DNA of 64,000 nucleotides from Pseudomonadota bacterium. GTDB taxonomy: Bacteria > Pseudomonadota > Gammaproteobacteria > Burkholderiales > JAJZQI01. Under the pieces are notes generated by a model. The model had not been told where the DNA came from. It saw nothing but the letters and a program-made list of their open reading frames with translations, and did no database searches. The position numbers were made by a program, and so were the translations under genes. The DNA lies in the NCBI GenBank assembly GCA_021851875.1, contig JAJZQI010000001.1, forward strand, positions 188,419 to 252,418. Direction: 5' to 3'. Positions 4,919 through 24,120 of this stretch are shown piece after piece; position 1 is the first letter of the stretch, and every line of letters begins with the position of its first letter.

Positions 4919-5594
4919 TGCGGTGCTCGTCTGCGACAATCTGAGCAAGACCTACGGGCGCGGGGAGCACGCCGTGGCGGTTTTGCAGGGCATCGACTTT
5001 AGCCTGCAGCCGGGCGAGCGGGTGGCCATCGTGGGCAGCTCCGGTTCCGGCAAGAGCACGCTGCTGCATTTGCTGGGCGGCTTGGATATGCCGACTGCCG
5101 GTAATGTGCTGGTCAAGGGGCAGGACTGGACCAGACTCGATGAAGCCGCGCAAGGCCAGTTGCGTAACCGTACCCTGGGCTTCGTCTACCAGTTTCACCA
5201 TCTGCTGCCGGAATTCTCCGCGCTGGAAAACGTCGCCATGCCGCTGCTGATTCGCCGTGAAGAGCGCAAGGCGGCATACCGGCAAGCCACTGAAGCGCTG
5301 CAGGCTGTCGGCCTGGGACATCGCCTGACGCACAAGCCGGGCGAGTTGTCGGGCGGGGAGCGTCAGCGCACGGCCATCGCGCGGGCATTGGTGACCCAGC
5401 CGTCGGCTGTGCTGATGGACGAACCGACCGGCAACCTTGATGAACATACGGCGGCGGCGATTCAGGAGTTGTTGCTGCGGTTGAATGAGCAAAGCGGCGT
5501 GAGTTTCCTGATCGTGACGCACGACACGCGTTTCGCGGCCAGGATGCAGCGTGTCCTGACATTGCACGAAGGCCGGCTGACGCAAGGCGGTTAA
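4911..5594 (+). CDS. lolD: Lipoprotein-releasing ABC transporter ATP-binding protein LolD
   Basis: Walker [10 protein letters not shown], signature LSGGERQR, Walker [13 protein letters not shown]; overlaps lolC. Confidence 0.93.
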
Positions 5595-6787
5595 TCGAGC
5601 AGCGCCTGCCAGGCAGCCGCACCTTGCAAATACCTCGCTTCCCATTCGCGGGCGGCGGTTCGCAAACGTGGACTGTCTTTTAGCGCCAGCGCCTGCCTCA
5701 GCGAATCGGCCAATTCCGGTATGGCCACGCAACCCGGCATGCCCGTGGTTTCCCACGTTTCGGCATAAGCCGCCTGTTTGCTGATATTCCCCTGCTGTAA
5801 CGGGTGGCGCAGATTGATGCGCGGCAGACCATAGGCCATGGCGACAATGCGGCCATGCAGGCTGCTGCCGCAATAGAGCGCGCTGCCCGCCAGCAGGGCA
5901 CAAATGCGCCAGATGTCGAGGTCTTCGAATAGCTGCACGCGATCTGGCGGCAAGCGCGTCTTCAGGCGTCGGTAGGGCTCCAGCGCGTCATGCCAGGGGG
6001 CAGCGCCGGCACGAAACAGGACGATTCCCAAGCGGTTTGTGGTCATGAAGGGAAGCAGCTGCCGGGCCAACTGGTCGAGCGTCACATCGTCGCCAAAGTC
6101 GGCGCTGAATTGCAGCGCGAGGTAGCCATTCGGCATGGCTTCGCGCAGGGCAGCCAATGCGCCGTCGTGCGAGGCTGCCGTAACACGCGGATGAAACAGG
6201 CGGCGCACCAGCACGGCGGGGTCGGGCAGCAAGTGCGGTGCGAGTCCGGCTGCTTGCAGGACGCCGTGAGTGACGTGATCGCGCACACCGATAAAGTCGG
6301 CTTCACGCAGTGCCTCATATACTTGTACGGGTTTTTTCAGTGCAAGATCGACGCCGCCCACAGCGTTGAATATCCACCGACCGGCTGAGTGAAAACGGCT
6401 GCGCGGTACCACGTAAGGGGCAATGCGGTCGCTGCCCGTCTGCGTCTGGGCCCATTGATCGCGTATTGACGGCGTTGCGGCGTCGTAAAGCGCAATGGCC
6501 TGCATCGCCTCGGCTTGGGTTTGCAGCATGACGGCCGCTTCCCAGTTGCTGCATGTGAGCAATTCGCCGCCGGCATGGACCAGGTGGACGCGTTTGCCTG
6601 CCGTGTGTTGCACGGCGTCAGCAAGAGAGACGACCCGCAGACCGCCCCAGCGGGTGAGGTCGCGCCGGGCCAGTCCTGTCATGATGCATGGGCGGTCTTG
6701 CAGCAAGGATTGGGTGATGTGGGCAAACAGCAGGTCGCCCAGATTATGCCGGTCGAAGGCTCCGAAAATGATTACGGGAGCTGGCAT
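5591..6787 (-). CDS. Polysaccharide pyruvyl transferase family protein
   Basis: [25 protein letters not shown]...NAVGGVDL...[14 protein letters not shown]...[23 protein letters not shown] (GSSLHG motif) as in the PS_pyruv_trans family. Confidence 0.8.
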
Positions 6788-8091: not shown

Positions 8092-9546
8092 ATGCAAGAC
8101 GGAATGACTGTCGGCAACTGGCTTGAACAGGCCATTACTGCCCATGACGCGGGAGATTTTGCCGGTGCGGTTGCCGCCTACCGGCAATTTTTGTCACTCA
8201 CCCCGGGAAACATTGATGTGATGACCTTGCTTGGCGATGCTCTGCAACAGTCGGGGGACTACCCCGGCGCCATTGCGGTGTATGCCGATGCATTGGCATT
8301 GCAGCCGGAAAATGCCGTGCTGCAGAACAATACCGGCGTCGCCTTGAGGCACCAGGGGTATCTGGCGGATGCGCTGGATTGTTTCCTCAATGCCATCAAT
8401 CTTGCGCCCGGCTACGTCGATGCCTGGCTGAATATCGGTTCGGTGCTGAATATGCAGGGACGGCTTGAGCATGCCGCAACCGCATTCAATCGCGTGCTCG
8501 ATCTGGAACCGCAAAATCCCAAGGTCCATGTCGGATTGGGCAACACCTTGTCCCGTGCAGGGCTGTTCGACGCTGCCCTGACATCCTACGAGACCGCTTT
8601 ATTGCTCGAGCCGGGCAACAACGACGCCCGCTGGGGACGTGGCCTGGTCAATTTGAGCCTGGGGCAATGGGATACTGCCTGGCAGGATTACGAGCTGCGC
8701 TTTCGCATGCAGGCAGCCTATCCCTTCGCCTATTCCAGACCGCACTGGCGGGGCGAGGGATTTGCCGACAAGACCCTGCTGATCCATGACGAAATCGGTT
8801 ATGGCGACGTGTTCCAGTTTTCGCGTTATTTCCCGCGCGTGAAGCAGCGCGGCGGGCGTGTGCTGCTGGAAGTGAAGCCGGGCCTTAAGCGCCTGTTTGA
8901 AGGATTCCCGGGCGTTGACGAGGTGCGCGAGCGGGGCAGCCAGCCGCAGCCGGAAAGCGATTTCGATCTGCTGGTGCCGCTGGAGAGCCTGCCCGCTGTT
9001 TTCGCTACGCGCACCGATTCCATCCCCCCGCTTGTGGCGCCGACCTTGCCGGACGAATTGCTGGCGGCTTGGCAAGAGCGCCTGAGCTCGCTGCCTGGCC
9101 GCAAAGTCGGCATCGTCTGGGCGGGAAATCCGAACAGCGCCTATGACGTGCAGCGTTCCATGCAGTTGAGCGAACTGCTGCCGCTGCTGCGTGCGGCCGG
9201 CGATTGCAGCTTTGTCAGCCTGCAGGTGGGGACAGCCGCAGAGCAGATGCAGCAGTCTGATGTGGCCATTTTCGATGCATCGCCCTGGCTGACCGATTTT
9301 GCCGAAACAGCCGCGGCCATCAGGTCGCTGGATCGGGTGATTACCGTGGAAACGTCGGTGGCTCACCTGGCGGGCATGCTGGGGACGCCGGTTTGGGTGA
9401 TGCTGACGAAGGTGCCGGCATGGCGCTGGGGTGTCGAAGGCGACAATACGCCCTGGTATCCGGCCATGCGTCTTTACCGCCAGAGCGAGACGGGCGACTG
9501 GAGCAACGTTCTGGATGCTGTGGCAAAAGATCTCGGGGCTATCTGA
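8092..9546 (+). CDS. TPR-repeat protein with C-terminal GT9/heptosyltransferase-like domain (FlmG-like architecture)
   Basis: Tandem TPRs ([57 protein letters not shown]), then [18 protein letters not shown]...[10 protein letters not shown]...[23 protein letters not shown]. Confidence 0.85.
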
Positions 9547-10316
9547 TGAAAGCTGTGATTCTGGCGGGCGGCCTGGGTACGCGGATCAGCGAAGAATCCC
9601 ACCTGCGGCCGAAACCGATGATCGAGATCGGCGGCAAGCCCATTCTCTGGCATATCATGAAGTGCTACTCGCACCACGGCATCAATGATTTCATCATTTG
9701 CCTGGGCTACAAGGGCTATGTCATCAAGGAATATTTCGCCAATTACTTTCTGCACATGTCCAACGTGACGTTCGATATGGCGAACAACAAGATGGAAATT
9801 CACCAGAACTACGCCGAGCCCTGGCGCGTTACGCTGGTCGACACCGGCGCCGAGACCATGACCGGCGGACGGCTCAAGCGGGTGAGAGATTACCTGGGCG
9901 ACGAAACGTTCTGCTTCACCTATGGCGACGGCGTGTCGGACGTGAATATTTCCGACCTGGTCCGGTTCCATGCGGCGCATGGCAGGAAGGCGACCGTTAC
10001 GGCCATCCAGCCGCCGGGCCGCTACGGTGCGCTGAAGCTGGATGAGTCCGCGGCAGTCATGCATTTCCAGGAAAAGCCGGTAGGCGACGGGGCGTGGATC
10101 AACGGCGGTTTTTTTGTGCTGCATCCGTCCGTTATCGATTACATTGCCGGCGACCATTCCATGTGGGAAGGCGAGGCGCTTGAGCGCATCGCCGCCGAGG
10201 GCGAGCTGAAAGCCTATCAGCACCGGGGTTTCTGGCAGGCGATGGATACGTTGCGCGATAAAACCCAACTGGAAGAGCTCTGGGCCAGGCCAAACCCTCC
10301 TTGGAAAGTCTGGTAA
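9546..10316 (+). CDS. rfbF: Glucose-1-phosphate cytidylyltransferase
   Basis: [78 protein letters not shown] is characteristic; start overlaps the previous stop (TGATG). Confidence 0.95.
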
Positions 10317-10319
10317 GGC

Positions 10320-11390
10320 ATGTTCGGCGGCATTTATTCGGCTAGACGGGTACTGATTACCGGGCATACGGGATTCAAAGGCAGTTGGCTGGCCTTGTGG
10401 CTGAGCGAGATGGGGGCAGAGGTGACGGGCCTGGCGCTGGAGCCGGAGGCGGCACCCAGTCATTGGGATGCCATTGCCCTGCCGATTGACAGTCAATTGA
10501 CGGACATCCGCGCGGCCGATGCGGTGCAGGAGGTGTTTGCCAAAGCCCGGCCGGAAATTGTTTTTCACCTCGCCGCCCAATCGCTCGTTCGCCGTTCCTA
10601 TCGCAATCCGCTGGATACCTGGTCGTCCAATGTCATGGGGACCGCCTGCGTATTGGAGGCCTGTCGCAACACGCCCAGCGTGCGTGCAGTGGTCGCCGTG
10701 ACGACGGACAAGGTGTACGACAACCAGGAGTGGTCCTGGGGCTACCGGGAAAATGACCGGCTCGGCGGGCACGACCCCTACAGCGCCTCCAAGGCGGCTT
10801 GCGAGCTTGTGGCGGACAGTTACCGCAAAGCCTTTTTTTCTGCGGCAGATGCGCCGTTGCTGGCAACGGCACGCGCGGGCAACGTGATCGGCGGCGGCGA
10901 CTGGTCGGAAGATAGGCTGATTCCCGATCTGGTCCGGGCTATCGGCCAAGCGGGGACGCTGGAAATACGCTCCCCCAACGCCACACGCCCGTGGCAGCAC
11001 GTGCTGGATTGTCTGTCCGGCTACTTGCAGCTGGGACAGGGCTTGCTGCAAGGTCGCCGGGACTGGACGGCGGCCTGGAATTTCGGTCCGGCTGTGCACG
11101 ACAACCGCACGGTGGCGGAGTTGCTCGACATGCTGGCGCGACACTGGCCGGAAGTGCGCTGGGCGGTTGCGGCCAATGCCGATTTGCATGAGGCCGGTCA
11201 GCTTTACCTGGATAGCGCCAAGGCCAGGCAGACGCTGCGCTGGCGGCCGGTATGGGAGCTGGAAGCGGCTGTTGCGGCGACAGCTCAGTGGTACCGCGCC
11301 TATACGGCGGGCCGGGTGGAATCCCGCCAGCAGTTGGCCGGCTATTTCCGGGCGGCGCAAGACGCAGGTGTGGAATGGGCCAAAGCATGA
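10320..11390 (+). CDS. rfbG: CDP-glucose 4,6-dehydratase
   Basis: RRVLITGHTGFKGSWLALWLSEMGAEVTGLALEP...EIVFHLAAQSLVRRSY...YSASKAACELVADSYR...NVIGGGDWSEDRLIPDLVRA. Confidence 0.95.
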   Translation: MFGGIYSARRVLITGHTGFKGSWLALWLSEMGAEVTGLALEPEAAPSHWDAIALPIDSQLTDIRAADAVQEVFAKARPEIVFHLAAQSLVRRSYRNPLDTWSSNVMGTACVLEACRNTPSVRAVVAVTTDKVYDNQEWSWGYRENDRLGGHDPYSASKAACELVADSYRKAFFSAADAPLLATARAGNVIGGGDWSEDRLIPDLVRAIGQAGTLEIRSPNATRPWQHVLDCLSGYLQLGQGLLQGRRDWTAAWNFGPAVHDNRTVAELLDMLARHWPEVRWAVAANADLHEAGQLYLDSAKARQTLRWRPVWELEAAVAATAQWYRAYTAGRVESRQQLAGYFRAAQDAGVEWAKA

Positions 11391-11938
11391 ATATCCAGCT
11401 GACTGCGATTGCGGGCGTTGTCGTCATCCGCACGGAAGCCTATGAGGACGAGCGCGGTGCCTTCGCGCGCCTTTACTGCGAGCGCGCCCTGGCGGACGTG
11501 CTGGGGGCGCGCCGCGTGGTGCAGATCAACCGGTCGCTTACGCGCAAGGCGGGGGCCATCCGCGGCATGCATTTTCAGTATGCGCCGCATGCCGAAATGA
11601 AAATGATCCGCTGCCTCAAAGGGCGGGTGTGGGACGTGGCGGTGGATATCCGGGCAGGCTCCCCGACCTTTTTGCACTGGCATGCCGAAGAGCTGACCCC
11701 CGCCAACGCAAAAATGCTGGTCGTGCCGGAAGGCTGTGCGCATGGCTTCCAGGTGCTGGAAGAGGACAGCGAATTGCTTTACCTGCACACGGCATTTTAT
11801 GAGCCGGCCGCGGAAGGCGGCTTGCTGTATGACGATCCGCGTCTGTCCATCGCATGGCCCCTGCCGGCGACGGAAATTTCCCGCCGGGACCGGGAACATG
11901 CGGCCATTGCGGAGGATTTTGCGGGAATGCGCTTATGA
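11387..11938 (+). CDS. dTDP-4-dehydrorhamnose 3,5-epimerase family protein (RmlC-like cupin)
   Basis: DERGAFARLYCERAL...INRSLTRKAGAIRGMHFQYAPHAEMKMIRCLKGRVWDVAVDIRAGSPTFLHWHAEELTPANAKMLVVPEGCAHGFQVLEEDSELLYLHTAFYEP; ATGA overlap with rfbG. Confidence 0.92.
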   Translation: MNIQLTAIAGVVVIRTEAYEDERGAFARLYCERALADVLGARRVVQINRSLTRKAGAIRGMHFQYAPHAEMKMIRCLKGRVWDVAVDIRAGSPTFLHWHAEELTPANAKMLVVPEGCAHGFQVLEEDSELLYLHTAFYEPAAEGGLLYDDPRLSIAWPLPATEISRRDREHAAIAEDFAGMRL

Positions 11939-13158
11939 AATGCCGTCATTGCGGTCAGCCGCTGGAGCATGTCTTTCTCGATCTGGGTTTTGCTCCGCCG
12001 TCGAATGCCTATTTGAGTGCAGCCGACCTGACGGCGCCGGAACTCTATTTTCCGCTCAAGCTGTATGTCTGCGAGCATTGCTGGCTGGTGCAGACGCTCG
12101 ACTTCAGCCGCGCCGATGAGTTGTTCAGTCACGACTACGCCTATTTTTCCTCGGTTTCGAAAACCTGGCTGGAGCATGCCGAGCGTTACACAGAAAAAGT
12201 GGTCGGGCTGCTGGAGCTCGGGCCGCACAGCCGGGTGGTTGAAATTGCCTCCAATGACGGTTATCTGCTGAAGAATTTCGTCGCCCGGAATATTCCCTGC
12301 CTGGGCATCGAGCCGACCGCCAGCACCGCACAGGCGGCACGTGCGATGGGCATTCCCGTACTGCAGGAATTTTTCGGCGAAGAATTGGCGCTGCGTCTTG
12401 CCAGTGAGGGACAACAGGCCGATCTGGTGGCCGGCAACAATGTGTTTGCCCACGTACCCGATATCAACGACTTTACCCGTGGTTTGAAGGCGCTGCTGAA
12501 GCAGGGGGGCGTGATCACGCTGGAATTTCCGCACCTGATGCGCCTGTTGGAATTCGGCCAATTCGACACGGTTTATCACGAACACTTTTCCTACCTGTCG
12601 CTCTATACCGTTTCCCGCATTTTCACTGCGGCGGGGTTGCGTGTGTGGCAGGTGGAAGAATTGCCGACCCATGGCGGCAGCCTGCGGGTGTACGGTTGTC
12701 ATATTGACGATGCGCGGTCCGATGACGCATCGGTGCAGCGCATTCTGGCAGAGGAGCAGCGCAGAGGCATGCGGGCGCTGCCGTTGTATCTTGCCTTTCA
12801 GGCGACTGCGAACCGCATCAAGGATGATCTGCTGGCGTTCCTGCTCGAACAGAAGCGGGCGGGAAAACGGGTGCTGGCCTACGGCGCTGCCGCCAAAGGC
12901 AACACACTGCTGAATTACGCCGGCGTAAAGCCCGACCTGTTGGCAAAGGTTTTTGACGCCGCACCGTCGAAACAAGGGAAATACCTGCCCGGCAGCCATA
13001 TTCCCATTTTGCCGCCGGCAAACCTGGCGGCGGAACGGCCCGATTATGTCCTGATTCTGCCCTGGAATATCAAAGCGGAGGTGGTGCGCCAGAATAGCGC
13101 GATGCAGGAATGGGGCGGGCGTTTCGTGGTGGCGGTACCGTCGCTGGAGGTGTGCTGA
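11935..13158 (+). CDS. Class I SAM-dependent sugar C-methyltransferase (Zn-binding N-terminus, C-methyltransferase C-terminus)
   Basis: MKCRHCGQPLEHVFLDLGFAPPSNAYL...LYVCEHCWLVQTLD (paired CxxC), VVEIASNDGYLLKNF, GKRVLAYGAAAKGNTLLNYAGVKPD. Confidence 0.9.
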   Translation: MKCRHCGQPLEHVFLDLGFAPPSNAYLSAADLTAPELYFPLKLYVCEHCWLVQTLDFSRADELFSHDYAYFSSVSKTWLEHAERYTEKVVGLLELGPHSRVVEIASNDGYLLKNFVARNIPCLGIEPTASTAQAARAMGIPVLQEFFGEELALRLASEGQQADLVAGNNVFAHVPDINDFTRGLKALLKQGGVITLEFPHLMRLLEFGQFDTVYHEHFSYLSLYTVSRIFTAAGLRVWQVEELPTHGGSLRVYGCHIDDARSDDASVQRILAEEQRRGMRALPLYLAFQATANRIKDDLLAFLLEQKRAGKRVLAYGAAAKGNTLLNYAGVKPDLLAKVFDAAPSKQGKYLPGSHIPILPPANLAAERPDYVLILPWNIKAEVVRQNSAMQEWGGRFVVAVPSLEVC

Positions 13159-14027
13159 TGCGGGTTGCCGTAACCGGTGCCAGCGGATTCATCGGCCGGC
13201 ATGTCGTCGCCCAGCTGCTGGGGCGCGGCTGCGAAGTCGTCGCCCTGTTGCGCGAGCCGGCGCGCCAGCCGGATGAATGGGCGGGGCGCGTCGAGGTCGT
13301 GCCGTTTGCTTTGGGGGAAAGCGGACTCGGACTCTATGACCGGCTGCGCCAGCCGGATGGGCTGATCCACCTGGCCTGGGCAGGTTTGCCCAACTACCGC
13401 TCCTTGCATCACTTCGAAACCGAACTGCCCAGACAGTATCAATTTCTGTCCTCGCTTGTGCGAGAGGGGTTGCCCGCCATGCTGGTGGCCGGTACCTGTT
13501 TTGAGTACGGCATGCAGTCCGGCATGCTGAGTCCCGCCATGCCGGCGATGCCGGCGAATCCCTATGGTTACGCCAAGGATGCGCTGCGGCGGCAATTGCA
13601 GATGTTGCAAACCGAGCAGGATTTCAATCTGGTTTGGGGGCGGATATTTTATCTCTATGGCGATGGTCAGTCGGCTGCATCGCTTTATCCCAAACTGCAA
13701 GAGGCGGTCGCGGCCGGCGCGACTACCTTCGCTATGTCCGGTGGCGAGCAGCTGAGGGATTACCTGCCGGTTGCCGAAGTGGCCCGGCGAATTGCCGTGC
13801 TGGCGCTGTCCAATCGCAATCTCGGGGTGCAGAACATTTGCTCGGGCCAGCCTGTTTCGGTGCGCCGGCTGGTGGAAGGATGGGTGGAACAGAATCAATG
13901 GAACATCACGCTGAATCTGGGGGTTTATCCTTACCCGGATTACGAGCCCATGGCATTTTGGGGGGAGGATTCGTTTTCCCTTTTATTTCCTGAACAAGCG
14001 GCGCAGGATGAGGGGGAGGGCGTATGA
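13158..14027 (+). CDS. NAD(P)-dependent epimerase/dehydratase (extended SDR), candidate NDP-sugar 4-ketoreductase
   Basis: MRVAVTGASGFIGRHVVAQLLGRG, catalytic YGYAKD, LRDYLPVAEVARRI; overlapping start with the preceding gene. Confidence 0.85.
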   Translation: MRVAVTGASGFIGRHVVAQLLGRGCEVVALLREPARQPDEWAGRVEVVPFALGESGLGLYDRLRQPDGLIHLAWAGLPNYRSLHHFETELPRQYQFLSSLVREGLPAMLVAGTCFEYGMQSGMLSPAMPAMPANPYGYAKDALRRQLQMLQTEQDFNLVWGRIFYLYGDGQSAASLYPKLQEAVAAGATTFAMSGGEQLRDYLPVAEVARRIAVLALSNRNLGVQNICSGQPVSVRRLVEGWVEQNQWNITLNLGVYPYPDYEPMAFWGEDSFSLLFPEQAAQDEGEGV

Positions 14028-14683
14028 GCCCGTTGCAATTGCGCGCGGGGACGGCGAGGCAGTTGGCCGACTACGTGATGCACCAGCTTGATCATCTGTT
14101 TCCACACGCCCCCAATGGGGCTGAACTCCTGCAAGCGCATGTGCCCGGCGCGCTCCAGCGCATCAAGCCGATTCTTTCGGCTTGCAAGGCGTTCCGACAA
14201 GACGAGTTCGATCACTTCAATTCCATGCAATATGCCACTTTCGTCTATTTGCTGGCCAACGAGTTGTGGCAGCATGGCGCGGAGCAAGAACAATTCGCGC
14301 TGTGCGAAAGACTTTTTCTGCTGAACAAGGCGCTGGCCGGTCTGGATCTGTATTACAAAATTGCCATGCCGGAGGTGTTTTTCCTGTCCCACGGCAGCGG
14401 CTCGGTATTGGCAAACACGGAGTACGGCAACAAGCTGGTACTCTTTCATAATGTGACGGTCGGGCGATACGGCGAGAGCCGGCCAACCATAGGGCAGCAT
14501 GTCATCCTGTTTCCCGGCGTGATCGTTGCGGGCAATTCGATGATTGGAAATGGGGCGGTGATTTCTGCTGGCCTCAGCATTATCAACCAGACGGTGCCGG
14601 ACGATTGTGTGGTCTTTGCCGGCCCGGCGGGCCTGGTATTCAAGCCCAAGAAAAAGTCCTATGCGGCGGAATTCTTTCGCTGA
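14024..14683 (+). CDS. Left-handed beta-helix acyltransferase (serine acetyltransferase-like)
   Basis: Hexapeptide region YGNKLVLFHNVTVGRYGESRPTIGQHVILFPGVIVAGNSMIGNGAVISAGLSIINQTVPDDCVVFAGPAGLVF. Confidence 0.75.
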   Translation: MSPLQLRAGTARQLADYVMHQLDHLFPHAPNGAELLQAHVPGALQRIKPILSACKAFRQDEFDHFNSMQYATFVYLLANELWQHGAEQEQFALCERLFLLNKALAGLDLYYKIAMPEVFFLSHGSGSVLANTEYGNKLVLFHNVTVGRYGESRPTIGQHVILFPGVIVAGNSMIGNGAVISAGLSIINQTVPDDCVVFAGPAGLVFKPKKKSYAAEFFR

Positions 14684-14722: not shown

Positions 14723-17700
14723 ATGAAGAACAAAAGTCCTCAATTGACCGTCGGTTTGCCTGTATTCAACGGCGAGAAGTTCGTCGGCAATGCGATCGAA
14801 TGCATGCTGGAGCAGACTTATTCGGATTACGTCTTTATTATTTCCGATAACGCCTCCACCGATGCGACCCAGGATATTTGCCGTCAGTACGAGAAGTTCG
14901 ACAAGCGCATCAAGTACTATCGTAATGAGCAGAACCTGGGGGCGGCCAAAAATTTCGAACTGCTCTACCAAAAGGTCGAGACGCCCTTTTGGACGCCGAT
15001 TTCGCACGACGATTATTTTTCCCTCAATTTTCTCGAAGCTTGCCTGAATAAGCTGATCGAGAATCCTGCCGTTGTTTTGGCGGCGCCGTCCCAGATTGCC
15101 GTGATTAACGCCAATGGTTTTATCAAGCGGGCCGAGAGCAATTTCAATACCACGGGCATGTCGCTGGCGGAACGCTTATGTCACATGCTCGACCGGATCA
15201 TGTGGGTATCGTTTTACGGCGTGAGCCGTACGCGCATATTTGGCGAGGTGTGGTCCAACATCGCGCCGTACAAAACGCGGTTTGGCGCGGACGTGATCTT
15301 TTTGGCAGGGATGCTGCTCAAGGGCCAGATTGCCGCGGCGGAGGGTACAACATTTTTTTATCGGGAAGCGGATACCGAAAAGTCAGCGACGGTCTACGCA
15401 CAGGATTTGCTGCCGGGGCAAGCCGTTGCCACGATGCCGTATACGGGACTGCTGGAATCGATTCTGGAGGTACTGTTTCTGTTCGCCGAGGTGCCGGTCG
15501 AGCAAAGAAAAACAATCAGCGATGCCCTTCTGCAGACAGTGCTAAAACAACCCAGCTGGGCGTACCAGCTTGACAGGGAGCAGCGTGCGCAGGAGGCCGC
15601 CACGCTGCCGCCCATGTCTTCCATCGTTACGCCGCCGGCGGTGGGGCCTGGGCCTGTCTTGCCTGCTGCGGCCGTCCAGTCCGCTCCTGTCCCTGCTCCT
15701 GTCGCAACCAGGACCGATGGGGTTGAGGCCGGCGGCAAATTCGGCATCAACGTGGTTGGGCATATTTCCGGCAATCTTGGATTGGGCGTTTCGGCCCGTA
15801 GCGTGGTCAAGTCGTTGCTGGAAAACAATATTCCCATTGCTATTTTTGACATCGATCCGGGACTGGGGCGCGGGCGCAAGGATCTGACTTTTGCCCAATA
15901 TCACGTAAAGTCGCTGGATGAATTGGTTTACCCGATAACGCTGTTCATGATGCCGCCAACCATTGGTTGGCTGAAAGAGGCATTGCCCGGACTGTTCCCC
16001 GCCGACAAGCTGCTGGTGGCGTACAGCATGTGGGAGCTGCCGGTTCTGCCGACGCCGTGGATGCAAGCGCTGGAGTCGTTTGATGTATTGGTGGCGGGTT
16101 CCGAGTTCATTCGGCATGCCTTTGAATTCAATTTGTCCAAAGTTCAGACAATTGTGACCAAGCATCCGCTCTACCTGCCCGATAACATTACGGGGGATCG
16201 GCAGCGATTCAGTCTGCCGGCTGATAAGACCATTTTCGTCACGGCTTTCGAGCCGAACAGCGATCCGGTCAGGAAAAACCCGCGCGGTGCCTTGCGCGCC
16301 TTTCTTGCCGCTTTTCCGGACGACGACTCGGTTTGTCTGGTGATCAAGATCAACAATGCCTATTCAGATGGGATTCTGCATCCGTCGGTGGTGGAATTGC
16401 AGCGCATTGCCAATGCCGATGACCGCATTGTCTTTGTTACAGCGAGCATGCCTTATATCGATGTGCTGGGACTTTATGCCTCCTGTGATGTTTTTGTTTC
16501 TCTGCATCGGGCGGAGGGGCTGGGGCTTGGGCTAATGGAAGCCATGGCGCTGGGAAAGCCGGTGATCGCAACCGGCTGGTCGGGCAACATGTCGTTTATG
16601 GATCACACCTGCGCCTGCCTGGTGCCCTATGTACTTATTCCCGTCAACGGCAGCATTCCTGCTTACACCATCGCGGAACTCGGGCGCGAGGCCAAGTGGG
16701 CGGAACCTTCGCTCGCCCATGCTTCGGCCTGGATGCGGCAATTGGCCGCCGCGCCCGAATTGCGTAATGAAATAGGGCAGGCAGCGGCCCGTGCCATGGC
16801 CATGCACCACAAGCAGGCCAGTGCCGCTGGATTTGTTTCCGAGTTGCATGCCATCTGGCAACACAAACAGTTTCTGCCGCATGCGGTTGAAATTGACGAA
16901 GGCGCCGCTGCTCTTACTGGTCTGGGTGTGCTCGACCAAGCTTACCAGACATGGCGGAACAAGCATTCCATACAGGAAATCGACGCGCAGATTCTGGCGG
17001 AACGAATGGTCATGAAATGGAAAACCAAACCGGTGTTCCATTTCGTCGTGCTGGTCGTGCAAGGACAGCAAAAAGCGCTGGCGGACGTGATCGACAATCT
17101 GTCGGCTCAAATGTACGGCAATTGGCGTTTGACTGTTGTGGCGGATTTCGCCTCGCCAGACGCGGCCTTCAATCAGTCCGATACATTGCAGTGGATACAG
17201 ATGCAGTCCGAGTGGCCGCTGGCGGATGTGCTCAATGTTGTAGTGGATCGCCGCAAGGATGATTGGTTTAGCGTGACCGCGCCGGGATTTGCGCTGGAGC
17301 CGCAAGCCTTGCTGGTCTTGTCCAATTACATCAACGCGTATTCAGACTGGCAGCTGATTTATACGGACGAAGACCGGCTGGAGTTGCATGGCCGACATGC
17401 CGATGCGCGTTTCAAGCCGGAATTCAATCTCGAATGGTTGCGGGCAGCCAATTATATGGGGGATGTCATATTCTGCAGCGGGCGCGCGATTGATGAAGTC
17501 GGCGGCTTTGCCGATTTGCCGGGCGCTTATCAATACGATCTGTCGTTGCGGCTTTATGAGCGTTTTGGCGGTAAGGGCATCGGCCATATTTCCGAAGTGC
17601 TGGTTTCCCTGACGCCGCAGTTCTGGTCCTTGGGTGACGCCGAAGGCGAGATGCAAGCCGTGCGCAGCCACCTTCAGCGCCTGAGCATCGAGGCTGAAGT

Positions 17701-19642
17701 GGTGGACGGTTATCAGCCCGGCACGCGCAGGGTGGCATACCAATGGAAAACCCGGCCGCCTGTTTCCATCATCATTCCCAACAAGGACAGTCTGGAGTAC
17801 CTGCAGCCCTGTTTGCAGAGCGTGTTTGAGAAAACCCAATATCCCGTCTTTGAAGTGTTGGTGGTGGATAACGGCAGTACCGATCCGGATGTGCTGGAGT
17901 ACTACGAGCTGATGTTGCGGCAGGAACCGCGTTTGCGGCTGCTGCGCGACCCGCAGCCATTCAATTTTTCGGCCATGAACAATCTTGCGGCGCGCGAAGC
18001 CAGGGGCGAGTATCTGGTGCTGCTCAATAACGATACCCAGATCGTGCAGGGTGACTGGCTGGCCCGTATGTTGTCGTACGGCCAGCGCCCGGATGTAGGT
18101 GTCGTCGGAGCGCGTTTGGTGTATCCGGAAACGAGCGTGTTGCAGCATGCGGGTGTGGTGCTGGGCATGCAGGGGGTCGCCGACCACATTTTCAACGGCC
18201 AGCTCAAGATCGATGAACCGGGCTATCTCGGCCGGGCGCATGTGGACCAGGAATACTCGGCGGTCACCGCTGCCTGCATGCTGGTGCGAAAAGCCCTGTA
18301 TGACCAGGTCGGCGGGCTGGATGAGGGAGCATTCAAGGTTTCGTACAACGACGTGGACCTGTGTCTCAAGATCGGTGCGCTCAATTACAAAATCATCTGG
18401 ACGCCGTATGCGACGGTCGTTCACCATGGCTCCGTTTCGCAAAAAGCATCGAACGTCGATCTGATGAAGCGGGCATTGAATGCCCAGCGGTTCGAGGCCG
18501 AGCAACACGCCATGCTGCGCAAATGGCTGCCGCAACTGGCCAACGACCCGGCCTACAATCGGCATTTGAGCCTGATGGCGCCGGACTGCCGTGCGGAAAG
18601 CAGCATCGTGGTCGATTGGGACCCCCATTTCCATGATCGCCAACGTATCCTCGGCGTGCCTTTGACCGGCGCCTCCGGCGAATATCGGGTGATCAGTCCG
18701 TTCAGGGCGCTCAGCCGGGCCGGCCTGGCGCAAACCACCCTTATTCAGGCCGGCAAGATGTTTGAGACCCGCGTCATGCTGCCGGTTGAGCTTGAGCGCG
18801 CGGCGCCGGATGTGCTGGTCATGCAAGCCGCAGTGGATGACCGGCAGTTGCGCGCCCTGGATGAATTCAAACAATTCAACTCGGGTGTGAAGCGCATTTT
18901 TACCCTGGATGACTTGGTCACCCAGATTCCGCAGAAGAGCTCCTTCTACCGGCATTCGTACCGGGATGCCAAACCGCGGCTCAGAAAAGCGTTGAGCTTG
19001 TGCGACCGGGCAATTGTCAGCACCGAACCGCTGGCCGAGTTGTGCCGCCCCATGATCGAAGACGTCAAAGTGGTGCCGAACAGACTGGAAGCGGCAATCT
19101 GGGGCGGGCTCACTTCGCAGCGCGGGAGCGGCAAGAAGCCGCGCGTGGGCTGGGCCGGGGCGCAACAGCACGCGGGCGATCTGGCGTGGATTCAGGACGT
19201 GGTCAAAGAAACGGCGAATGAAGTCGAGTGGGTCTTTCTGGGGATGTGTCCGGATGAAATCCGTTCGTACGTGCATGAATTCCATGACTTCGTACTGTCG
19301 TTTTATGACTACCCGGCCAAATTGGCCAGTCTGAATCTCGATCTGGCCATCGCCCCGCTGGAAATACACGCGTTCAATGAGGCGAAGAGCAATCTTCGTT
19401 TGCTGGAATACGGCGCCATGGGTTGGCCGGTGATCTGTACCGACATTTATCCCTATCAGACCAACGCCGCCCCCGTATGCCGCCTGCCGAACAATGTGGG
19501 CGCCTGGGTGAATGCGATTCGCGAACGCATCTACGACCTGCAGTCCGCCTACCGGGAAGGCGACCGGCTCAAGGCCTGGGTGGAGCAGAACTATATACTC
19601 GAGAATCATCTGGATGACTGGTTCGGGGCGCTTGCCCGCTAA
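14723..19642 (+). CDS. Giant multi-domain glycosyltransferase (GT2 / GT4 / GT2-like / GT2 / GT4-like modules)
   Basis: 1639 aa: N-terminal GT2 (PQLTVGLPVFNGEKFVGNAIECMLEQTYSDYVFIISDNASTD), Pro/Ala-rich linker, GT4-like (VFVSLHRAEGLGLGLMEAMALGKPVIATGWSGN), second GT2 (SIIIPNKDSLEYLQPCLQSVFEKTQYPVFEVLVVDNGSTD...LLNNDTQIVQGDWLARM), C-terminal GT4-like (AIAPLEIHAFNEAKSNLRLLEYGAMGWPVICTD). Confidence 0.9.
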   Translation: MKNKSPQLTVGLPVFNGEKFVGNAIECMLEQTYSDYVFIISDNASTDATQDICRQYEKFDKRIKYYRNEQNLGAAKNFELLYQKVETPFWTPISHDDYFSLNFLEACLNKLIENPAVVLAAPSQIAVINANGFIKRAESNFNTTGMSLAERLCHMLDRIMWVSFYGVSRTRIFGEVWSNIAPYKTRFGADVIFLAGMLLKGQIAAAEGTTFFYREADTEKSATVYAQDLLPGQAVATMPYTGLLESILEVLFLFAEVPVEQRKTISDALLQTVLKQPSWAYQLDREQRAQEAATLPPMSSIVTPPAVGPGPVLPAAAVQSAPVPAPVATRTDGVEAGGKFGINVVGHISGNLGLGVSARSVVKSLLENNIPIAIFDIDPGLGRGRKDLTFAQYHVKSLDELVYPITLFMMPPTIGWLKEALPGLFPADKLLVAYSMWELPVLPTPWMQALESFDVLVAGSEFIRHAFEFNLSKVQTIVTKHPLYLPDNITGDRQRFSLPADKTIFVTAFEPNSDPVRKNPRGALRAFLAAFPDDDSVCLVIKINNAYSDGILHPSVVELQRIANADDRIVFVTASMPYIDVLGLYASCDVFVSLHRAEGLGLGLMEAMALGKPVIATGWSGNMSFMDHTCACLVPYVLIPVNGSIPAYTIAELGREAKWAEPSLAHASAWMRQLAAAPELRNEIGQAAARAMAMHHKQASAAGFVSELHAIWQHKQFLPHAVEIDEGAAALTGLGVLDQAYQTWRNKHSIQEIDAQILAERMVMKWKTKPVFHFVVLVVQGQQKALADVIDNLSAQMYGNWRLTVVADFASPDAAFNQSDTLQWIQMQSEWPLADVLNVVVDRRKDDWFSVTAPGFALEPQALLVLSNYINAYSDWQLIYTDEDRLELHGRHADARFKPEFNLEWLRAANYMGDVIFCSGRAIDEVGGFADLPGAYQYDLSLRLYERFGGKGIGHISEVLVSLTPQFWSLGDAEGEMQAVRSHLQRLSIEAEVVDGYQPGTRRVAYQWKTRPPVSIIIPNKDSLEYLQPCLQSVFEKTQYPVFEVLVVDNGSTDPDVLEYYELMLRQEPRLRLLRDPQPFNFSAMNNLAAREARGEYLVLLNNDTQIVQGDWLARMLSYGQRPDVGVVGARLVYPETSVLQHAGVVLGMQGVADHIFNGQLKIDEPGYLGRAHVDQEYSAVTAACMLVRKALYDQVGGLDEGAFKVSYNDVDLCLKIGALNYKIIWTPYATVVHHGSVSQKASNVDLMKRALNAQRFEAEQHAMLRKWLPQLANDPAYNRHLSLMAPDCRAESSIVVDWDPHFHDRQRILGVPLTGASGEYRVISPFRALSRAGLAQTTLIQAGKMFETRVMLPVELERAAPDVLVMQAAVDDRQLRALDEFKQFNSGVKRIFTLDDLVTQIPQKSSFYRHSYRDAKPRLRKALSLCDRAIVSTEPLAELCRPMIEDVKVVPNRLEAAIWGGLTSQRGSGKKPRVGWAGAQQHAGDLAWIQDVVKETANEVEWVFLGMCPDEIRSYVHEFHDFVLSFYDYPAKLASLNLDLAIAPLEIHAFNEAKSNLRLLEYGAMGWPVICTDIYPYQTNAAPVCRLPNNVGAWVNAIRERIYDLQSAYREGDRLKAWVEQNYILENHLDDWFGALAR

Positions 19643-19657: not shown

Positions 19658-21337
19658 ATGATGAATGCCCAAGAGGACTTGGCCAAGGCAATTTCAATGC
19701 ACCTGGCGGGCCAGCTCGAGGCAGCCGCGGAGGCGTATCTCCGCCTGCTCGCCGGGCAGCCGGACAATGTCGATGCACTGTTTCTGCTGGGAACCCTGCG
19801 GGTCCAGCAAGGAGCAATGAACGAGGCGCTGGCCGCCTTGTCCCGCCTTCTGCAGCTTAAACCGGATCATATGGATGGATGGGGGCAGCTGGCCGAGTTG
19901 CATCGCGCCACGGGACAGTTTGCCGCGGCGTTGCATTGCTACCGGCAAGTGCTGCAGCTGTCGCCGGATAATGCGGCTGCCCGCGCCGGCGAGGCCGAAT
20001 GCCTGGCGGCGTTGGTAGCCGCTGCACAGCAGGCCATGCAGGCTGCGCTTGCTGCCTATCAGCGGCGGGATTTTCCGGCGGCGATTCAGTGGGCAAAGGA
20101 ATCTCTGAATCACTATCCCAGTGCGGCGGCATGGAACAACCTGGGAGTGATGTATAAAGAGCAGGGCGATTGGCCGGCAGCCGAGGGTGCCCTGCAGGCC
20201 GCGGTCAACCTGGCGCCGGACTATGCCGAGGCATGGAGCAATCTGGGCAATGTCTATTGGGTGCAGCACCGTTACCGGGACGCTCTCGATCCATACGATC
20301 GGGCGGTGCAACTGCAGCCGGATAATGCGGTTTCCTGGAATAATCTGGGCAACGGCCTGCAGGCGGCAGGGCGGCTGGATGCGGCTGTCGAGGCGTTTGA
20401 GCGGGCGCTGCAACTGGATCCCGACTTTGCCATGGCGCATTGGAATCATGCCATCGCTGCATTGCTCAAGGGCGATTACCGTACCGGCTGGAATGAATAC
20501 GAATGGGGCTTTGCGTGCGGGCTGCGGCCGCTGAAGTTTCAGCCTTTGCCGGTGTGGCAGGGGGAGCCCGGTGTGCGGCTGATCGTGTACGCCGAACAAG
20601 GCTTTGGCGATACCCTGCAGTTCGTGCGTTTTCTGCCCGCTTTGCAGGATAAGGTTGCGCAACTGGTTTTGGCCGTGCCGGTGGAATTGCAGCGTCTGTT
20701 GCAGCGTTCTTTCCCGGCCGTCCGGGTCGCGCCGGAGGCGCAGCTGAACAAGCGGGACTATGATGCCGTGCTGCCCTTGATGAGTCTGCCGCATCGGCTG
20801 GGGCGGGTGGAGCCGGCCGATTTTTCCGCCGCAACGCCTTACCTGAAAGCCGATCCGGCGAATGCGGCGAGGTGGCAAGCGCGCCTGTCCCAATTTGCCG
20901 GCGAACGGCTTGGCATTGCCTGGCAGGGCAGCCGCAAGCACAAGGGCGACGCCCTGCGCTCCATTCCGGCCGAGCGGCTGGCCGGAGCGCTTGCCGGCAG
21001 CGGGATTGCGCTGCACAGCCTGCAGGCGGGGCACGATGCGCCCGACGTGCCGCAGGGTGTGACGGACTGGCGGACAGAGATTCAAGATTTCGACGATCTT
21101 GCCGCTATAGTGCATGAGCTTGACTGTGTGGTAACGGTGGATACGGCCGTCGCACATCTGGCGGGTGCGCTGGGTAAGCGGGTCTATCTGCTTTTGCCTT
21201 TTGCGCCCGACTGGAGGTGGGGGAGGTCCGCCGAGGAATGTGTCTGGTACGGTCAGATGCACTTGCTCAGGCAGGCGTCGCCGGGTGATTGGGATTCTGT
21301 CCTGCGGCATCTGGCAGCGGCCCTGACAAAAAAATAA
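19658..21337 (+). CDS. TPR-repeat protein with C-terminal GT9-like domain (paralogue of the 8092-9546 product)
   Basis: Tandem TPRs (YAEAWSNLGNVYWVQHRYRDALDPYDRAVQLQPDNAVSWNNLGNGLQAAGRLDAAVEAFERALQLDPDFAMAHWNHAIALL) then VYAEQGFGDTLQFVRFLPAL...LGIAWQGS...VVTVDTAVAHLAGALGKRVYLLLPFAPDWRWG. Confidence 0.87.
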   Translation: MMNAQEDLAKAISMHLAGQLEAAAEAYLRLLAGQPDNVDALFLLGTLRVQQGAMNEALAALSRLLQLKPDHMDGWGQLAELHRATGQFAAALHCYRQVLQLSPDNAAARAGEAECLAALVAAAQQAMQAALAAYQRRDFPAAIQWAKESLNHYPSAAAWNNLGVMYKEQGDWPAAEGALQAAVNLAPDYAEAWSNLGNVYWVQHRYRDALDPYDRAVQLQPDNAVSWNNLGNGLQAAGRLDAAVEAFERALQLDPDFAMAHWNHAIAALLKGDYRTGWNEYEWGFACGLRPLKFQPLPVWQGEPGVRLIVYAEQGFGDTLQFVRFLPALQDKVAQLVLAVPVELQRLLQRSFPAVRVAPEAQLNKRDYDAVLPLMSLPHRLGRVEPADFSAATPYLKADPANAARWQARLSQFAGERLGIAWQGSRKHKGDALRSIPAERLAGALAGSGIALHSLQAGHDAPDVPQGVTDWRTEIQDFDDLAAIVHELDCVVTVDTAVAHLAGALGKRVYLLLPFAPDWRWGRSAEECVWYGQMHLLRQASPGDWDSVLRHLAAALTKK

Positions 21338-21471: not shown

Positions 21472-22326
21472 ATGGCACTCGTCGTCAATACTAATATCGC
21501 TTCGCTGGTTGCTCAGAACAATCTGAATAACTCGCAAAGCGCACTGCAGGTTTCCCTGCAACGTCTGTCTTCCGGTCTGCGCGTAAACAGCGCCAAGGAC
21601 GATGCGGCAGGTCTGGCAATTTCCCAGGCATTCACCGCGCAAATCCGCGGTAACAACCAGGCGATCCGTAACGCAAACGACGGTATCTCTCTGGGTCAAA
21701 CCGCTGAAGGCGCGCTGGGTCAGATCGCCAACAACGTTCAACGTATTCGTGAAATTGCCGTACAGGCAGCCAACGGTACCGTCAGCGATACCAACCGTTC
21801 TCAGCTGCAGAACGAGGTGAACCAGCTGACCCAGGAAATTTCCCGTATCGTTCAGACCACCAACTTCAACGGCACCAACCTGTTGTCCGGCGCCAGCACC
21901 CTGACCTTCCAGGTGGGCGCTTCCGGCTCCAGCAACAACCAGGTGAGCATTACCACCACCAACCTGGCGCAAAGCGGCGCTGCCGGCTTGTATTCCTATG
22001 CAACCAGCCTGACTGCAACCGGTACCGTGGATATCACCACCTCCGGTGCGGCTTCTGCTGCGATTGCCAACCTGGATGCGGATATTTCCCAGATTTCCAC
22101 CGTACGTTCCACCTTCGGTGCGGTGCAAAACCGTTTCGAAGCCGTGGTGGCCAACTTGCAGAACTACGTGCAGAACCTGACCGCTGCAAACAGCCGTATC
22201 GTGGACGCCGACTTTGCCTCTGAAACTGCAAACCTGACCCGTAATCAGATTCTGCAGCAAGCGGGTACCGCGATTCTGTCCCAGGCCAATGCCTTGCCGC
22301 AGAGTGCACTGACCCTGTTGCGTTAA
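21472..22326 (+). CDS. fliC: Flagellin
   Basis: [51 protein letters not shown] ... [44 protein letters not shown]-type flagellin ends; RBS AAGGAG. Confidence 0.98.
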
Positions 22327-22815: not shown

Positions 22816-24120
22816 ATGGCCATTACAGCAGCAGGCATCGGGTCCGGTATCGATGTGAGTTCAATTGTCAGCCAGTTGATGGCAATCGAGCGCCAGCCGC
22901 TCGATGCCCTGAATCAAAGCCGGTCCCAATACAACGCCCAGCTGTCCGCCTACGGCAAGATAAAGAGCGACCTGGCGGCATTCCAGACAGCCGTGCAGGC
23001 GATGCAGTACAGCACCAGCTTCGCGCTCTATGGCGCGACCTCTTCCAATACTTCTGTCCTGTCGGCCTCAACTGATACCACGGCATTGTCAGGGACCCAC
23101 AGCATTACTGTAAATTCCCTTGCCCAAGCGCAGATCCAGGTCGCGGCAACCGGTTTTGCCGACACGGGCACAACGGCGGTAGGTGCGGTGGGGGATACGC
23201 TGACCTTTACCACCGGTTCCAATACCTTTACGGTGACGCTTGACAGCACCAACAATACCCTGCAGGGACTGCAAAACGCAATCAACTCGGCAGCGGGCAA
23301 CTATGGCATAACGGCGTCGATACTGAATGACGGTACGGCCAACGGCAACCGTCTGGTCATTACTGCGAATTCTTCGGGTACGGCAAACGCCGTCACTCTG
23401 TCCGGTACCTTGGCTACCAGTTTGAGTTTCGCGACTACCCAGGCGGCTGCAAACGCAAGTCTGACAGTTGACGGGGTAACCGGAATCACCAAATCAAGCA
23501 ATACGATCAGCGATGTGCTGCAAGGTGTGACTCTCAATCTGCAAGGCACCGGCACTACCACGCTGACTGTGCAAGCTGACACCACAGCCGTTACAGGTCT
23601 CGTGAATAAATTTGTATCGGCCTATAACGCGTTGCAAAGCGACATATCCAGTCTGCATGGCAAGGGCGGGACGCTGGAGGCCGACAATACGATTCTCACG
23701 ATCAACAGCGTGCTGGGCAACGTATTTAATTCGGGCACGAGCAGTGGTTTATATAATTACCTCTCCCAGGTCGGCATCTCACTGCAGAAGGACGGCACCT
23801 TGTCGCTGGACAGCGCTGCCTTCAGTTCGGCGGTATCCAGTCACTATTCCGATGTGGTCAGCCTGTTCACCAATGCAACTGACGGTTTTTCCAACCGGTT
23901 CAATACAGCGTTGAACGGTCTGCTGCAGTCGAATGGCATTGTCACGGCGGCAACCGATGGCATCAACGCCAACCTGAGTTTGCTGCAGACCCGCATCGAC
24001 CAGATGCAGACGCGCCTGGACCAGACTCAGCAGAGTCTTCAGGCGCAATATTCGGCACTTGACGCCCTGCTGGGAACGATGCAATCTTCAGCCAACTTCC
24101 TCCTTTCACAGCTGAGATAA
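22816..24120 (+). CDS. fliD: Flagellar hook-associated protein 2 (filament cap)
   Basis: GIGSGIDVSSIVSQLMAIERQPLDALNQSRSQYNAQLSAYGKIKSDLAAFQ; C-terminal FliD coiled coil. Confidence 0.96.
   Translation: MAITAAGIGSGIDVSSIVSQLMAIERQPLDALNQSRSQYNAQLSAYGKIKSDLAAFQTAVQAMQYSTSFALYGATSSNTSVLSASTDTTALSGTHSITVNSLAQAQIQVAATGFADTGTTAVGAVGDTLTFTTGSNTFTVTLDSTNNTLQGLQNAINSAAGNYGITASILNDGTANGNRLVITANSSGTANAVTLSGTLATSLSFATTQAAANASLTVDGVTGITKSSNTISDVLQGVTLNLQGTGTTTLTVQADTTAVTGLVNKFVSAYNALQSDISSLHGKGGTLEADNTILTINSVLGNVFNSGTSSGLYNYLSQVGISLQKDGTLSLDSAAFSSAVSSHYSDVVSLFTNATDGFSNRFNTALNGLLQSNGIVTAATDGINANLSLLQTRIDQMQTRLDQTQQSLQAQYSALDALLGTMQSSANFLLSQLR

Follow-up and report, generated by a model that had tools for sequence, protein, structure and literature searches.

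The window, a stretch of 64,000 nucleotides from a contig (JAJZQI010000001.1) of a bacterium of the order Burkholderiales, contains a run of forward-strand genes that leads through nucleotide sugar genes and a gene for a 1639-aa protein into fliC and fliD (Table 1). In this study, the 1639-aa protein was analysed module by module, and its family was traced through related genomes.

Table 1. Genes of the flagellin-associated cluster and modules of the 1639-aa protein, with positions in the window
Feature	Position	Strand	Evidence
TPR protein; glycosyltransferase half not confirmed	8092..9546	+	TPR families (Pfam)
Glucose-1-phosphate cytidylyltransferase (RfbF)	9393..10316	+	TIGR02623 above cut-off
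CDP-glucose 4,6-dehydratase (RfbG)	10320..11390	+	TIGR02622 above cut-off
RmlC-type 3,5-epimerase	11252..11938	+	TIGR01221 above cut-off, match from residue 49; overlaps neighbouring frames
Sugar 3-C-methyltransferase	11854..13158	+	PF08421/PF13489/PF08484; PDB 5t64 E=6.5e-73, also 4rv9, TcaB9
NAD-dependent epimerase/dehydratase-type ketoreductase (SDR)	13110..14027	+	PF01370
Hexapeptide O-acetyltransferase-like protein	14024..14683	+	Below cut-offs: PF00132, EpsC/CysE models
1639-aa putative modular flagellin glycan synthase (FgtA-type core and GT2-GT4 cassette)	14723..19642	+	Single ORF, ATG start
M1, N-terminal GT2, aa 1-260	14723..15502	+	PF00535 stretch 10-122; PDB GT2 matches 5hea, 6p61
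Pro/Ala/Val-rich linker, fast evolving, about aa 261-335	15503..15727	+	Sister-species identity
M2, GT4 module, aa 336-735	15728..16927	+	PF13692/PF00534; TreT, WbaZ, RfaG structures by profile
M3, degenerate GT2, aa 738-1005	16934..17737	+	APGFAL at DxD position; chondroitin synthase GT-A profile match
M4, canonical GT2, aa 1006-1300	17738..18622	+	VDNGSTD, LNNDT, NDVDLC motifs
M5, GT-B/GT4-like module, aa 1301-1639; proposed initiating flagellin glycosyltransferase	18623..19639	+	Conserved residues; weak Pfam GT4
TPR protein, weak GT9-like C-terminus	19658..21337	+	TPR families; PF01075 just below cut-off
Flagellin FliC, 284 aa, likely acceptor	21472..22326	+	PF00669/PF00700
FliD filament cap	22816..24120	+	PF07195/PF02465

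Gene content of the locus

The fliC gene begins 1830 bp downstream of the gene for the 1639-aa protein on the same strand, with one TPR gene between them, which is the position of an FgtA-type gene. The product of this TPR gene matches O-GlcNAc transferases in the PDB, and these matches cover its TPR part. FliC carries 21 Ser/Thr within residues 141-200.

The RfbF, RfbG, RmlC-type, 3-C-methyltransferase and SDR proteins, taken with the established chemistry of their families, predict a CDP-linked 6-deoxy-3-C-methylhexose. The closest solved relatives of the methyltransferase are named sugar 3-C-methyltransferase, mycarose 3-C-methyltransferase and TcaB9. The presence of an RmlC-type epimerase inside a flagellin glycan cluster also points to a CDP-linked 3-C-methyl sugar. 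The genes rmlC and rmlD are located elsewhere in the genome, which makes dTDP-L-rhamnose plausible as a donor for M5.

Other genes of the window include one on the opposite strand (5591-6787), upstream of the cluster, that is polysaccharide pyruvyl transferase-like, and one at 31328-33775 for an 815-aa protein in which a Ser/Thr protein kinase domain is joined to an HDOD domain and a weakly matching GAF domain. The genome encodes a second giant glycosyltransferase of 1648 aa (L009:4604-9550; contig C10:117603-122549), comprising an FkbM methyltransferase, two GT4 modules, one GT2 module and a long Gln/Glu-rich repetitive stretch. This protein was rejected as a paralogue of the 1639-aa protein because its domains are different and only a local GT2 match was found.

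Module architecture and catalytic motifs

Module limits were set from homologue alignments. Pfam detected GT2 at residues 10-122 (the best match), GT4 at about 558-635 and GT2 (PF13641) at about 1012-1235. The sister genome, the only other member of this family in the comparison, encodes a protein with an identical five-module layout and 84% identity. Whole-protein dN/dS between the two was 0.07, and the values for M1 to M5 were 0.045, 0.062, 0.104, 0.035 and 0.049, respectively, these ratios being approximate because dS is near saturation. Purifying selection thus acts on all five modules and is weakest on M3. The linker is 45% identical between the sister species, versus 88% on its flanks. 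The shared layout, the 84% identity and a dN/dS of 0.035-0.10 per module show that the ORF is not a product of chance or artefact. The ORF, the Pfam matches and the sister genome thereby confirm the preliminary description of a single uninterrupted ORF with several glycosyltransferase modules and a Pro/Ala/Val linker.

The GT-A donor motifs, namely, a DxD-type motif and a downstream ED/ND, are present in M1 (SDNASTD at aa 41, SHDD at aa 94 and GADV at aa 188) and intact in M4 (VDNGSTD at 1048, LNNDT at 1101 and NDVDLC at 1209). M2 carries RKN at 517-519 and E598-x7-E606, both invariant across 19 homologues, and its profile matches the solved GT4 enzymes TreT, WbaZ and RfaG. The DxD metal site is lost from M3, where aa 853-858 read APGFAL; homologues of M3 have a single GD at best, with the D present in 53/94, and D882 and W848 are near invariant. 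M3 of the 1639-aa protein alone gave no Pfam match, PF00535 was matched by M3 of 11/30 homologues, and the M3 profile matched the chondroitin synthase GT-A domain 2z87 (E = 5e-6).

M5 of the 1639-aa protein contains the motifs GWAG..H.GDL and FNEAKSNLRLLEY, and GWxG, H1483, D1486, N1552, K1555, S1556 and E1562 are near invariant among its homologues. Twelve M5 residues, picked after their conservation was seen, deviate in just 3 of 94 aligned cores, one of which is cut by a contig end. Among ten genomes fetched later, nine have a copy that keeps all twelve. M5 of the 1639-aa protein matches PF13692 with E = 0.0019 and 18.9 bits, below the 27-bit cut-off, and the same family is matched weakly, also below cut-off, by M5 of 33/40 homologues. 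The second Glu of E-x7-E is conserved in M5 and the first is out of register. No relative was found in a profile search of M5 against the PDB; hhalign of M5 against M2 gave a probability of 9%, and the AlphaFold2 model of M5, built from two input sequences, had a pLDDT of 34. A search for the core in viral contigs found no relatives; some phages carry distant M5 matches (25%).

The preliminary description had counted about five catalytic-like modules. This number is one too many because M3 has lost its DxD; M1, M2 and M4, which keep their motifs, and M5, which keeps E-x7-E in part, are plausible. Catalytic motifs are kept in four of the five modules, in M5 in part.

A conserved C-terminal core linked to flagellin

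The family was searched in the order (399 genomes) and in the class (369 genomes). Long proteins repeatedly end in an M3-M4-M5 block of about 900 aa. About 110 loci in Gammaproteobacteria yielded 95 ORFs with M5, which have lengths of 441-2936 aa (median 1580, some cut by contig ends) and reach at least 1400 aa in 66 cases; a large chain with many modules is therefore the norm in the core family. A phylum sample of 399 genomes gave 19 strong M5 matches in 18 genomes, every frame being at least 1181 aa and 18 of the matches lying within the same class. Tandem core copies occur at L162:3411-10684 and L166:5579-12800, each with one intact and one eroded M5, and at L146, where both are intact. The longest relative (2936 aa, L058:3917-12727) carries the core C-terminally and is followed downstream by a pair of TPR genes and two copies of fliC.

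M3 and M4 erode across the family, whereas M5 stays constant. M4 is not intact in 21/94 aligned cores, FgtA included, and its donor motifs are gone in about a quarter of homologues. On a core tree built without the M4 columns, the state of M4 requires at least 12 changes. The erosion of M4 was not explained by the count of other glycosyltransferase modules in the cassette (mean 0.79 where M4 is dead and 0.92 where it is intact).

A same-strand fliC lies within 5 kb downstream of 59/95 core ORFs, at a median distance of 189 bp, and the proportion is 54/83 where 5 kb or more of sequence follows the core ORF. In control loci, picked because they match M2 alone or generic tandem GT2s, fliC or fliD was found in 0/16. 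The fliC linkage of core versus control loci gave a Fisher p=1.3e-6, computed on genomes that are not independent and uncorrected for kinship. No FliC or FliD hit was obtained within about 20 kb at 20/83 core loci with enough sequence; a share of the family may therefore have another site of action or a split locus. Among the loci added later, fliC is directly downstream in L160, L163, L165, L167 and L168, on the opposite strand in L164 and on the other side in L162 and L166; none was found in L161 within its contig or at L169, a weak out-of-class match. Because the core tracks fliC, LPS, which had been named as another possible glycan target, is unsupported in that role.

Exchangeable N-terminal cassettes

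The region N-terminal to the core is an interchangeable cassette that varies even within one genus. Its parts include GT2, GT4, GT9, RgpF, methyltransferase, radical-SAM and phosphotransferase domains. The combinations are one to three GT2; GT2 with GT4, as in the 1639-aa protein; GT9 or RgpF with a methyltransferase; a radical SAM with two GT2; a TylF-like methyltransferase; and an unassigned part of about 390 aa with a methyltransferase. These assignments are approximate, the scanning models having been built from the same sequences that they scanned, and 16 rows are unlabelled. The radical SAM domain opens the cassette of L049:6998-12628, beside fliC, and is fused to the two GT2 modules.

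Placed on a FastTree core tree, the cassette labels require at least 38 changes. The same-genus proteins of L048 and L053 are 79% identical from residues 713 and 853 onward, respectively, and unrelated N-terminal to these points; those of L144 and L145, also of one genus, have cores that are 81% identical and different front ends. M2 of the 1639-aa protein recurs at 44-48% identity in the core proteins of L139 and L143 behind other first modules, and as a stand-alone 462-aa protein in L108. If cassettes are indeed swapped at a fixed boundary, flagellar glycans would diversify by swaps of one gene segment. No earlier description of cassette exchange was found in the open literature searched, an absence that is not proof.

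FgtA of Pseudomonas aeruginosa as an experimental anchor

In NZ_CP131792.1, the gene order is flgJKL, methyltransferase, HAD phosphatase, NTP transferase, a 1694-aa protein and b-type fliC, which fits the published pa1088-pa1091 island. The 1694-aa protein was taken as FgtA (the PA1091 equivalent) from gene order and the published description rather than from the PA1091 reference sequence. It aligns with the M3-M4-M5 core of the 1639-aa protein at 36.2% over 99% (E=8e-130) and has one PF04464 phosphotransferase domain, as published for FgtA. The region containing flgJKL, fgtA, fliC and fleQSR (395196-415793, L157) was deposited within an 847-kb 'conjugative plasmid', a record that may represent a piece of the chromosome or the capture of a large chromosomal segment.

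Flagellin is non-glycosylated in pa1091 mutants and keeps deoxyhexose only in pa1088-pa1090 mutants; FgtA, described as a member of the GT2 family, is needed for the first flagellin sugar and was proposed to add the phospho-amino-acid cap (PMC11833859). The b-type flagellin glycan consists of one rhamnose and a phospho-linked cap (PMC3958885). M4 of FgtA is eroded (DNGSTD to ASGPLA, LNNDT to LGAGV) and its M3 has no DxD; its M5 keeps every conserved residue. With one sugar and one intact glycosyltransferase module in FgtA, the priming of flagellin is most simply ascribed to M5. We infer from these motifs that M5, and not the annotated GT2, puts the first sugar on flagellin. The 1639-aa protein does not carry the N-terminal phosphotransferase of FgtA, and it was filed as a variant rather than an FgtA orthologue because the N-terminus varies across the core family.

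Proposed function and alternative explanations

On balance, the 1639-aa protein may be regarded as an FgtA-like synthase of flagellin O-glycans, cytoplasmic and made of a single chain, in which M5 would prime and M4 and the cassette would extend, and it probably builds most of the short sugar chain on the flagellum. In this scheme, Ser/Thr residues of FliC would receive from M5 a first sugar that is probably a deoxyhexose, for example L-rhamnose; M4, which is optional across the core family, would add the second; and the N-terminal cassette would extend or cap the chain, with M2 and M1 here adding up to two more sugars. Probable donors include the CDP-3-C-methyl-6-deoxyhexose encoded upstream, possibly O-acetylated. 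M3 may be a non-catalytic GT2 relic kept as a scaffold or acceptor-binding part. The inventory of intact modules thus predicts up to four sugar additions. The preliminary claim of a glycan builder holds in so far as a multi-step, flagellin-directed enzyme is concerned, since the cluster leads into fliC and fliD and FgtA belongs to the family, and fails for an active M3. A broader proposal is advanced only tentatively, at a little under even confidence: M5 would represent an undescribed glycosyltransferase family that starts flagellin O-glycosylation in many Gammaproteobacteria, with cassettes swapped at a fixed boundary and four active sugar-adding modules in the 1639-aa protein.

Alternatively, M5 may be a conserved domain that docks flagellin or has a structural role. 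M4, where it is intact, or a separate FlmG-like TPR glycosyltransferase would then add the first sugar, and the giant protein would be limited to extending it. The faint resemblance of M5 to GT4, its imperfect E-x7-E register and the reusability of GT-like folds for binding are consistent with such a role, as are the TPR proteins on both sides of the gene; the TPR part of FlmG binds flagellin, and FlmG is sufficient for glycosylation (PMC7591256). We nevertheless consider docking unlikely. FgtA is required for the first sugar although its M3 and M4 motifs are lost (PMC11833859), no TPR glycosyltransferase was found among the annotated genes around FgtA, and the nucleotide-site-like H/D/K/E set is kept in nearly all homologues though flagellins vary, which is unexpected for docking.

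The two flanking TPR proteins, lying in one gene run with the 1639-aa protein, could also move to flagellin a whole short glycan made beforehand on a lipid or nucleotide acceptor. This route is improbable, given that many fliC-adjacent core genes have no TPR-glycosyltransferase homologue at their locus and that the PA1088-PA1091 mutants indicate that the glycan is built up in steps on flagellin, which bears only the deoxyhexose if no cap donor is made (PMC11833859). The comparison suggests that the 1639-aa protein itself attaches the first sugar, via M5, rather than relying on TPR-glycosyltransferase transfer of a finished glycan. An LPS or capsule enzyme with incidental fliC adjacency can be imagined, tandem GT2s resembling M3-M4 being common elsewhere in genomes and on plasmids; the link of core loci to fliC, its absence from all 16 loci without M5 and the flagellin phenotype of the FgtA mutant leave this explanation with very little probability.

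A shift of the first-sugar activity of FgtA from its GT2 modules, which look dead, to the unclassified M5 would provide a testable target for flagellin selection and priming. A constant core with a variable cassette would explain the quick change of flagellar glycans among related bacteria, and an inventory of intact modules would allow the number and type of glycan units to be predicted.

Comparison with known systems

FgtA of b-type P. aeruginosa strains and the 1639-aa protein are both giant single chains with the M3-M4-M5 core at the C-terminus. FgtA lies directly upstream of fliC, its cassette is a CDP-glycerol-type phosphotransferase (PF04464) and its M4 is eroded, whereas the 1639-aa protein has a GT2-GT4 cassette and an intact M4. 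Fgt1/Fgt2 of Pseudomonas syringae and RfbC of Dickeya, which are needed for flagellin glycosylation (PMC3927599, PMC7575072), are similar by description, being glycosyltransferases encoded beside fliC. FlmG of Caulobacter is likewise a modular cytoplasmic flagellin O-glycosyltransferase; however, it combines TPR with one GT-B domain and may be a counterpart of the flanking TPR proteins instead of the 1639-aa protein. Generic tandem GT2 enzymes resemble M3-M4 at about 30-44% identity and, unlike the core family, lack M5 and showed no link to fliC at the loci inspected. Chondroitin synthase (PDB 2z86/2z87), the best solved profile relative of M3 and M4, also has two GT-A modules per chain, but both serve one polymer, and neither a GT-B module nor a cassette accompanies them.
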